Origin: Pseudomonas fluorescens | Lineage (GTDB): Bacteria > Pseudomonadota > Gammaproteobacteria > Pseudomonadales > Pseudomonadaceae | Direction of reading: 5' to 3' | NCBI RefSeq assembly: GCF_004683905.1 | Contig: NZ_CP038438.1 | Span: forward strand, 1,054,001 to 1,118,000 | Length of the DNA: 64,000 nucleotides | Shown: one piece after another, positions 49,399 through 52,388 of the stretch | Numbering within the stretch: the stretch's first letter is position 1 | Layout of the letters: each line of letters opens with the position of its first letter | The notes under the pieces: model-generated | The model's input: the letters and a program-made list of their open reading frames with translations, nothing else | Told to the model about the DNA's origin: nothing | The model's database searches: none | Position numbers and translations under genes: made by a program

Positions 49399-50880
49399 TC
49401 AGAAGCGCCAGATCACGTCGATGAACGCGCGGTGCATGTACGAATCGACCTGGCTGCCATAGGCATCACCCGGCTTGAACACGCCGCCACGGAAACGCAC
49501 CAGCGCCGACGGTTCGTCGATCGACTGGCTCAACGCCGCCGGCAACAGGCCTTGCTTGAAGTACTTGGTCACCACCAGATCCATTTCCTGGCCCAGGTCC
49601 TTGTTGCCATCCTGCAGCGGCAGCGAGGTGCTGGAGAGGATCGCGCCAGTGACGTCGTCGGTGTTGTTTTCCACGGCGTTGATGCCGTTGCTGCCCACCG
49701 GCTTGTTGCCGTCCACGCGCCAGAACTTGTGGTAGATCAGGCTGGCGTCGTACTGGTCGTTGAGCATCCACGAACCGAACAGGGTGGCAGTCTGCATGTT
49801 GTTCATTTCGCCACGGAACGCTTCGCCGAAACGGTGCACGCGCGAGCGGGTACCGGTGTAGTTGGAGCGGTTGCTTTCCAGACCGTTCTGCTGGTAATCG
49901 GCGCTGGCGCGAGCGTAGGCCGCACCGACCTGCCACTGCGGATCGAGGCGCAGGCGCACGCCCAAGTCGGTGGCCCAGCCGTTGATGTCATCACTGCGCT
50001 TGGCTTGTGCCGGACGGCTGCCATCGGCGTTCAGCGGGTTGACCGAATCGAGGTCGCCGCTCATGCCGGTGATGCTGCCCCAGTAGTTGACGGTGTTGGT
50101 GTTGCGCCAGTTGTAAGCGTCGCTGTCGGCGGTCAGACCGAGCCAACTGATGTCGCCGTTCTGGGTTTTGTCGAGGGTGTCGCGGGGCACGCCCGGTTCG
50201 GCGTAATCGAGCTTGCCGTTGTCGTGGGTGTGATGACCGCGAATGCCGACCCAGTTACCCGGTGTCCACTGGTAGGCGGCATCGGCGTAAGCGTGCAGGC
50301 GATCCTTGTCTTTCGGCGCGAGCTCTTTGAGGTCAGTGCGGTATTCGCTGAAGCGTTCGGCGACACCGACGTTGGCGCGCAACAGGGTGGTATCGAAGGT
50401 CCAGTTCAGCGCTTCGATGTTGGTGTCGCGCCATTGGCCGTCGTCATTGCGCAGGCGCTGGCGACCGAACTTGAGCATCTCGCCGGGGTACGGCGTCAGG
50501 CCGCTGTAGCCGACCCAGAATTCGCGCATCGCCAGATAATTTTTCTTGGTTTTGCGGTCGCTGTTGTCGGTGGTTTGTTCACCGTCGGACTGCTGCAGGG
50601 TGTCGGTCTCGATGATGTCGGTCGAGGTCACGGCCTGACCCATGGCGTAGGCACTCCACGCGCCGCTTTCGCCGTAGACCCACGGACGCAGGTCCAGGCC
50701 CACACCGTTGACGTCGCCGCCGCTGGCGGTGCCGAGGTCGCGGTCGTCTTCGGACTGGCCGGTGATTTTCACTTCCAGGCCGAAGTTCTTGGTTTCAGTG
50801 ATCGCGGCCAGTGTCGGGCAAGACCAGATCAGCGCGAACGTGAGGCCAATGCCGGCCTTCACAAAGGGATTCAACTTCAT
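49399..50880 (-). CDS. algE: Outer-membrane alginate porin AlgE
   Basis: 493 aa. The signal peptide (about 1-25, cleavage near SCPTLA-A) precedes a beta-barrel rich in alternating strands with many aromatic girdles and a terminal Phe (FIDVIWRF). In P. aeruginosa it forms an 18-strand anion-selective channel for alginate. Its ATG overlaps the algK stop by 4 bp, so translation is coupled. It partners with AlgK. Confidence 0.96.
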   Translation of the reverse strand: MKLNPFVKAGIGLTFALIWSCPTLAAITETKNFGLEVKITGQSEDDRDLGTASGGDVNGVGLDLRPWVYGESGAWSAYAMGQAVTSTDIIETDTLQQSDGEQTTDNSDRKTKKNYLAMREFWVGYSGLTPYPGEMLKFGRQRLRNDDGQWRDTNIEALNWTFDTTLLRANVGVAERFSEYRTDLKELAPKDKDRLHAYADAAYQWTPGNWVGIRGHHTHDNGKLDYAEPGVPRDTLDKTQNGDISWLGLTADSDAYNWRNTNTVNYWGSITGMSGDLDSVNPLNADGSRPAQAKRSDDINGWATDLGVRLRLDPQWQVGAAYARASADYQQNGLESNRSNYTGTRSRVHRFGEAFRGEMNNMQTATLFGSWMLNDQYDASLIYHKFWRVDGNKPVGSNGINAVENNTDDVTGAILSSTSLPLQDGNKDLGQEMDLVVTKYFKQGLLPAALSQSIDEPSALVRFRGGVFKPGDAYGSQVDSYMHRAFIDVIWRF

Positions 50881-52388
50881 AGGGATTCCTCGCCGTCTTC
50901 TTCTTGCAGGGCGTGCAGTTGCAGCGTGTTCTGGTTCAGGGCGCCACGGCTGGCCTGTTCCTGTTGCAGCAGGCGCTGGGCTTCGGCCAGACGCTCGGGC
51001 GGCAATTGTGCTGCCAGGGTGGTCGCCAGTTCATCGGCTTGCGGGGTGTTCTGCGCCTTGGCCAATTGGCTGAAGACATAGGCGTTGAGCGGGTCGGGCT
51101 TGGTGCCCTTGCCTTGGGAAAACAGTTGGGCAATGGCGAAATCGGCGCTGTTCTGGCCATTGCGCGCAGCGGTCAGCAGGTGGTCGAGGGCCTTCTGCGG
51201 GTAGACCTTGCCCAGATAACCACGGCGATAGATCTGGCCGAGGTAGTAGTCGGCGGCGACTTCGCGGCCGACGGCTTTCTGGAAGTGTTCTTCGGCGACT
51301 TTGGCGTCGGCCGGCACCAGTTTGCCTTCGTAGTAGAGCTTGCCCAGCAACAGTTCGGCGCGCGGCTGGTCGGCGGCGCGGCCGTTGTCCAGGTACTTCA
51401 TCATCTGATCGACGTCGCCCAGTTCCGGGAAGTCGTAGAGCAGCTGCGCGAGAGTCACCCACGATGCCGGGTAGCCCGGGGCGATCGGTTCGAGCAGCGC
51501 TTGCGCGGTCTTCTCGTCGGTCTTGCCGAGGGTCGAATCGGCCAGCACGCGGGCCACCGAATCGACGCGCTGCGCGCTGACCGTGCCACGGCTGTAACCG
51601 GCCTGCATCTGCTTGATCAGCTCGGCCTGTTGCTCCGGCTGGGCGCGTTTCTGATAGACCGTGGCCAGTTCGACGTAGCAGATGTCGGTGGTGTTGAGCG
51701 CGGCCTTGCAGATTTTTTCCACGTCATCCAGATGCTGGTCGTAAGTGCCCTGGGTGCGATACAGCAGCACCTGCGCCAGGCCGGCTTCCGGGTAGCCGGA
51801 TTTGCGCCACTGATCGATCTGCTGCTGTGCGTTGATGTTCGGGAAGCTGTGCGGGAATTGCAGGTACAGCATCGCCAGCGGGATCAACGTGTTGCCTTCG
51901 CCATTGGCGGCGGCTTTTTTCAACAGGCTTTCGGCTTCGTGGTGCTCGGCTTCGGTGGAACCCGGCTTGGCTACCAGCAGGCGCCCGAGACGGGCCTGGG
52001 CCCGTGGCGACACGTCGGCGGCGGCACGGTAAGTCGCCTCGGCCTGTTTGATCTGCTCGGGGTCGCGGCTGTCGACCTGGATATCGGCCAGGCCCACTTG
52101 CGCCTCGCTGTAACCCAGATCTGCCAGTGCGCGGTAGTTCTGCGCGGCGGTGGCGGTGTCGCCACGCTTGAGCGCTTCGTTGGCCAGGCGTTGGTCGGGC
52201 AGGCCGGCGCAACCGGCCAGACTTACCGCCAGTGCGACTGCACACAGCGGACCCATGTGGGAGCGGGCTTGCTCGCGAAGGCGGTGTGTCAGCCCAAACT
52301 GATTTTGAATGTTGAACCGCATTCGCGAGCAAGCCCGCTCCCACAAGGGCTGCGGCGTGTTCAAAAGAGTAGGAATCGTCACAGGCAT
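50877..52388 (-). CDS. algK: Alginate export lipoprotein AlgK with REP-altered N-terminus
   Basis: 503 aa if the first ATG is used. AlgK is an outer-membrane lipoprotein scaffold made of TPR/Sel1-like helical repeats (about 65-450, starting CAGLPDQRLANEALKRGDTA) that organises AlgE and AlgX. The lipobox VSLAGC puts the acylated Cys at residue 60, whereas known AlgK proteins reach it near residue 27. The extra residues are translated REP sequence (LWERACSR ... RLREQARSH) that stays in frame. Internal starts at 52322 and 52256 are possible; which is used decides the signal peptide. Confidence 0.93.
   Translation of the reverse strand: MPVTIPTLLNTPQPLWERACSRMRFNIQNQFGLTHRLREQARSHMGPLCAVALAVSLAGCAGLPDQRLANEALKRGDTATAAQNYRALADLGYSEAQVGLADIQVDSRDPEQIKQAEATYRAAADVSPRAQARLGRLLVAKPGSTEAEHHEAESLLKKAAANGEGNTLIPLAMLYLQFPHSFPNINAQQQIDQWRKSGYPEAGLAQVLLYRTQGTYDQHLDDVEKICKAALNTTDICYVELATVYQKRAQPEQQAELIKQMQAGYSRGTVSAQRVDSVARVLADSTLGKTDEKTAQALLEPIAPGYPASWVTLAQLLYDFPELGDVDQMMKYLDNGRAADQPRAELLLGKLYYEGKLVPADAKVAEEHFQKAVGREVAADYYLGQIYRRGYLGKVYPQKALDHLLTAARNGQNSADFAIAQLFSQGKGTKPDPLNAYVFSQLAKAQNTPQADELATTLAAQLPPERLAEAQRLLQQEQASRGALNQNTLQLHALQEEDGEESL
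52256..52345. repeat. Inverted REP pair inside the algK 5' coding region
   Basis: Arms TGTGGGAGCGGGCTTGCTCG and CGAGCAAGCCCGCTCCCACA, 90 bp overall, lie between codons 15 and 45 of the algK frame and contain no stop in that frame. Confidence 0.95.

Follow-up and report, generated by a model that had tools for sequence, protein, structure and literature searches.

REPINs as probable, recurrently renewed n-region code of the AlgK lipoprotein signal peptide in Pseudomonas

In the analysed window (64,000 nucleotides of Pseudomonas fluorescens, contig NZ_CP038438.1, positions 1,054,001 to 1,118,000), a REPIN is situated in frame between the start of algK and the lipoprotein h-region. This element probably provides AlgK with the positive n-region of its lipoprotein signal peptide and would be renewed by active REP families. 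The features concerned are the following (window positions; residues are counted from ATG 52388):

50877..52382, minus strand: algK ORF when begun at GTG 52382, the likelier start (NCBIfam NF038194, 811 bits)
52380..52382, minus strand: likely start codon GTG, preceded by the Shine-Dalgarno (SD) motif GAGGA with 7-nt spacing
52257..52344, minus strand: REPIN of 88 bp, residues 15-44 of the predicted algK leader
52323..52344, minus strand: REP arm 1, encoding LWERACSR in the algK frame
52257..52278, plus strand: REP arm 2, whose complement encodes REQARSH in the algK frame
52209..52256, minus strand: h-region and lipobox MGPLCAVALAVSLAGC, Cys codon 52211-52209
52398..53567, minus strand: alg44, the operon gene upstream of algK, ending ahead of the algK SD motif
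49399..50880, minus strand: algE-like gene downstream of algK, overlapping the algK stop codon
45197-46333, minus strand: algL-like ORF

The names alg44, algE and algL are those which we take to apply from operon order. The alg44 ORF matched only HlyD-type NCBIfam models, below their cut-offs, and for the algE-like ORF no NCBIfam match was obtained. A further REPIN of the alg gene cluster was seen at 45091-45178, just past the 3' end of the algL-like ORF.

The earlier note had described a REP pair without stop codon in the algK signal-peptide region. Read directly from the sequence, the 88-bp core extends from the third base of codon 15 through codon 44 in the algK frame, contains no stop codon and encodes LWERACSRMRFNIQNQFGLTHRLREQARSH. 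The extended arms (52252-52285 and 52316-52349) have 34 nt each, are 94% complementary and are separated by 30 nt. Thus, two inverted REPs with a spacer are present. The tetranucleotide head of the GTGG/GTAG type, given as a rule for REPs in passages of PMC3686654, was found in GTGGGAGC. The 23-mer GTGGGAGCGGGCTTGCTCGCGAA matched the window 20 times at ≤ 3 mismatches (shuffles: mean 0) and the strain's own genome (6.14 Mb) holds 1,008 exact copies (503 + 505), i.e. the hundreds of copies expected of a REPIN. Judged by this copy number, the REP in algK is a Pseudomonas family. A RAYT gene with flanking REPs is present as well: three genes matched the Y1_Tnp model above cut-off (L376-L378), and L376 (C1:3733199-3733501), a RAYT-like Y1 transposase gene with an HFH motif, is accompanied by four REP pairs of the same family on each side with a period of ~135 bp. 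L377 is flanked by two REP pairs at 4 mismatches and L378 by none. L376 is a possible mobiliser of the REPINs. The extragenic place, which is usual and not strictly defining for a REPIN, does not apply to the element in algK.

The mature AlgK of the window is intact and near the solved AlgK 3e4b, which aligned from residue 61 (E 7.3e-254). The NCBIfam model exceeded its cut-off of 700 bits with an alignment beginning at residue 47, directly after the REP. The lipobox LAGC has its Cys at residue 60, as the earlier note had counted. That note had used ATG 52388 as start codon, which gives an ORF of 503 aa (50877..52388, minus strand). Judging from conservation, GTG 52382 is more likely to be the start, because 183 of 211 distinct loci have the SD-GTG unit in frame with algK, all 183 of them open, and because the GTG is kept where the upstream ATG or its frame was lost. 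The upstream ATG is absent or out of frame in L226, L243, L247 and L144, with the GTG retained; in L226, a 1-nt insertion puts it out of the algK frame. Loci of the L191 type have TTG where the GTG would stand. A review of algK start sites in many genomes is suggested. The algK of G034 (L100, C1:2057208-2058715) consists of two overlapping frames (residues 1-159 and 153-503), due either to a real frameshift or to a sequencing error.

For the survey, algK loci were gathered from named genomes, near relatives and two genus searches. The latter were queried with the mature AlgK, so the REP was unable to steer the ranking. Matches were obtained in 355 of 398 genomes and algK was read in 235 distinct genomes, best-scoring first, hence the fluorescens complex and the putida side are weighted most. 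A lipobox regular expression matched 324 of 325 loci; the exception, L109, was dropped. A REP arm was called when ≥ 14 of 17 positions matched any of 20 arm sequences found in algK itself. REP sequence was present in the leader in 169 of the 235 genomes, in 119 of 150 genomes listed best-first in one genus search and in 38 of the 60 best rows of the second (putida-side) search. An insertion specific to the window strain is thereby ruled out in favor of a recurrent one in the genus. Eighty loci from named genomes had been ranked with the REP in the query; these were excluded from the genome fractions and included among the 281 distinct loci, of which 213 carry a REP and 68 do not. Counts over the 213 loci include eight putida-side rows, several with short open frames, plus twelve lower-ranked rows. 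Four loci (L167, L212, L218 and L227) have long leaders of ~59-74 residues without recognised REP arms.

The comparison with relatives, which the earlier note had recommended, yielded algK orthologs both with and without REP. The opposite picture, a long N-terminus common to all relatives and devoid of REP homology, was not observed. No recognised REP was found in algK in 66 of the 235 genomes, some of which are REP-rich, so the REP is not required. The REP-less, REP-rich genomes include G016, G183 and G005, with 261, 359 and 512 copies of one family; a REP-poor host therefore fails as the reason for a REP-less algK.

Whether the REP is translated was judged from the 213 loci, which had been selected by lipobox and REP and not by an open frame. 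No in-frame stop codon was found across the REP region in any of them, whereas the other two frames had stops in 85 and 142 loci. With a looser REP calling (7-base cores including some chance matches; 202 loci), the corresponding values were 0, 86 and 133. An in-frame ATG or GTG upstream of the REP exists in all 213 loci, with an SD-like motif before it in 210 (none in L210, L252 and L320). The alternative is an untranslated REPIN, a usual extragenic hairpin between alg44 and algK, with algK starting downstream at ATG 52256 or at a GTG or TTG. Passages of PMC3733652, in which most 5'-end REPs in ORFs of P. putida, C. koseri and S. maltophilia are held to be maybe non-coding, speak in its favor, as do the 127 of 213 loci, the window among them, that retain a possible downstream start (ATG in 98). 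Yet 86 of 213 loci (e.g. L260, L243 and L258; 77 of 202 under the looser calling) have no ATG, GTG or TTG at least 13 codons before the Cys downstream of the REP, and 19 have none whatsoever between REP and Cys. The leader of L260, for instance, reads IAGQARSYLCLALAISLAGC. In these 86 loci the start has to be upstream and the REP must be translated. Besides, the conserved SD-GTG unit stands ahead of the REP, and MGPLCAVALAVSLAGC alone would have no Lys or Arg (K/R). Together, the open frame and the start sites render an untranslated REPIN very unlikely. ATG 52322 and 52256, which the earlier note had named for start-codon fusions, fall within the hairpin arms or at their edge, and those 86 relatives have no usable start after the REP. 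The window does keep a possible downstream start. For this reason, translation in the window is argued from the relatives. The background expectation was taken from 73 REPIN pairs found elsewhere in the own genome (764 kb), which were open in 0.50 of placements and would be both in frame and open with a probability of 0.168. A dozen independent insertion types at this probability each give ~5e-10, a rough value in which the independence is a judgement. These data indicate real translation of the REP in many of the 235 compared genomes, and the window REPIN is likely translated as residues 15-44.

The leader has the features of a lipoprotein signal peptide, namely a lipobox with Cys and positive residues before the h-region. 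K/R 12-25 residues before the Cys were found in 212 of 213 REP leaders and in 64 of 68 REP-less leaders. Of the 213 REP leaders, 209 carry at least one K/R within the REP and 76 carry no K/R ahead of it. In the window, the only K/R of the leader are R18, R22, R24, R36, R38 and R42, all six inside the REPIN. That the REP supplies positive residues, as the earlier note had suggested, is supported by these counts, and they led us to read the REP as the predicted n-region. A competing reading is pure tolerance, according to which n-region and alg44-algK gap form a harmless site for REPINs and the REP residues contribute nothing. REP-less and scar-like alleles exist (L031, L157, L159, L282 and L307), REPs are found in every frame, and 106 of 213 leaders (53 of 202 under the looser calling) have the K/R closest to their h-region behind the REP, all of which agree with tolerance. 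In the other 107, the closest K/R is located within the REP. The larger share under the stricter calling slightly lowered our confidence in the n-region reading. Against it, all K/R are inside the REP in 51 of 213 leaders, the window included, where the REP residues would be needed if the n-region rule holds. We consider pure tolerance a real possibility, albeit a doubtful one.

It is also conceivable that the hairpin and not the peptide is under selection, in which case it would tune translation or the stability of the mRNA at the alg44-algK junction, with the open frame as the price. For the 221-nt segment, a folding energy of -117.3 kcal/mol was obtained (z -7.5). Pairing of the arms was evaluated in the main class of 135 loci, as register shifts affect the other classes. 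There, the two arms vary together and agree on average at 15.87 of 17 positions, compared to 14.31 when arms are shuffled among loci (highest value of 1000 shuffles: 14.72), an excess inflated by the relatedness of the loci. The same match would result from relatedness or from REPINs swapped as units, however, and in 14 of the 135 loci the arms match at ≤ 13 of 17 positions. Around the start, local folding is nearly the same in REP loci (mean -5.66, n=200) and in REP-less loci (-5.21, n=37). Although the hairpin had been expected in the translation-initiation region, it begins 38 nt downstream of GTG 52382, in the early coding region, and consequently leaves SD site and start uncovered. On balance, selection on the hairpin appears unlikely, and the REPIN as a supplier of n-region charges is retained as the preferred reading.

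About 15 arm sequences occur at the algK site (seventeen 17-mers after the REP head were present in ≥ 2 loci, two of which are not REP arms). Relative to algK, pairs of the >< arrangement occupy all three frames (135, 29 and 16 loci) and the reverse arrangement <> was found in 13 loci. Eleven loci, classed by eye and by script, have composite or nested REPs. The leaders L068 and L231 contain a complete REPIN within an older REP, and the whole is still in the algK frame. While families and nested copies can be read from the loci themselves, direction and mechanism of the changes are our reconstruction. The five scar-like short leaders named above suggest in-frame REP losses. One of them, L031, was considered as an ancestral empty site and rejected, as its junction resembles, by eye, a deletion at a CTGTG repeat common to REP edge and flank. 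On the algK tree, 64 changes of leader label and 33 changes of REP presence were obtained (260 rows; 14 class labels set by hand). Leader types cross the tree of the algK body, so gain, loss and allele exchange are indistinguishable on it, and the counting of independent insertions was abandoned. For the same reason, exchange of algK leader alleles between species is likely, too.

Three exact arm patterns were counted in 13 genomes, 11 of which carry a REP in algK. In all eight REP-filled genomes whose algK arm was among these patterns, its family is abundant in the host. The algK arm type is GGCTTGCCAGC in G019 (496 copies), G011 (164) and G009 (1,363), CCGGGCTTGCCCG in G069 (203) and G359 (107), and GRGCYTGCTCGC in G000 (1,233), G033 (1,332) and G010 (1,188). 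It is not always the commonest of its host: the GRGCYTGCTCGC type has 665 copies in G019, 539 in G011 and 452 in G359, and in G069 a wider pattern counts 790. In G025, G123 and G110, whose exact algK arm was not among the patterns, this wider pattern gave 595, 126 and 10 copies; it covers the arms of G025 and G123. G030 seemed REP-poor by the exact patterns (0, 12 and 3 copies), but 121 copies were obtained once the first G of the pattern was dropped.

A second lipoprotein of the own genome, L286 (1108-1746 of C1:482900-486200, minus strand), begins with MQHLT, followed by a REPIN and then by TGVVVWLVLLLTALLSGC. No Pfam family was found for it. Its orthologs were resolved in 22 of 30 loci; six have a REP, and the leaders of the other 16 are short (e.g. 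MIRALLIGCLLLLSACAS). The ortholog REPs are in frame in G000, G011, G029, G019 and G033, but not in G034. This case is weaker than algK, since translation could also begin at one of the GTG codons behind the REP. Among 134 REP clusters (0.77 Mb of the own genome), only those of algK and L286 are followed in an open frame by a hydrophobic stretch with lipobox; L286 joined this set because an earlier match had pointed to it, not by sampling.

The following history is proposed. The ancestral algK leader was probably short, with ~22 residues, such as VTSPLRILPVPLTLAMAIALAGC. REPINs would insert just after the algK start, and in-frame insertions would survive because REP arms often lack stops and the n-region tolerates almost any sequence with Arg or Lys before the h-region. 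Some alleles, including that of the window, have no Arg or Lys ahead of the REP (NTP instead of RTP), leaving the REP-encoded ones as the sole ones. A resident REPIN may later be replaced, interrupted by a younger REPIN or lost through an in-frame deletion. REPINs could be a renewable signal-peptide code: host-active families would supply the algK leader again and again, native arginines would be lost in many alleles, a selfish element would join the export machinery and a second lipoprotein would behave alike; this wider reading is put forward tentatively. The site is a natural experiment on the minimum sequence demands of an n-region and shows REPIN turnover by family swaps, nesting and scars. 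The fate of a mobile element in an export signal becomes testable through synonymous and non-synonymous recoding.

Compared with AlgK as known (NF038194; PDB 3e4b), a TPR lipoprotein of alginate export, mature protein and lipobox of the window protein are alike, whereas its leader is largely REPIN-encoded. REPs occur almost exclusively in intergenic regions according to passages of PMC3686654, and REPINs or REP doublets of Pseudomonas are described in extragenic space in those of PMC3116915. The algK element resembles the latter in inverted pair, high copy number, hairpin and RAYT-like genes in the genome, and differs in being a likely translated leader. Intragenic GTAG/CGTC REPs within ORFs, many near N-termini, are reported in the main text of PMC3733652, including recB of X. 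campestris and X. oryzae with different REPs at about the same site. Most N-terminal REPs of P. putida are held to be non-coding there, in contrast to the likely translated REP of algK. The words alginate and lipoprotein are absent from that main text, the list of REP-bearing ORFs being placed in Additional file 3. In the literature searched, supplementary files aside, no report of a REPIN in the leader of algK or another lipoprotein was found. Rickettsia palindromic elements (RPE), reviewed in passages of PMC10969869, are likewise palindromic mobile elements in frame within coding genes. They occur in another host and would be another family, judging from the copy number of the REP in Pseudomonas. 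In algK, unlike the RPE case, one gene was hit repeatedly by many families, and this in a predicted cleavable signal peptide. Hence, intragenic REPs as such were already known and, with respect to the literature searched, their recurrent use as signal peptide by multiple families in algK is a new form.
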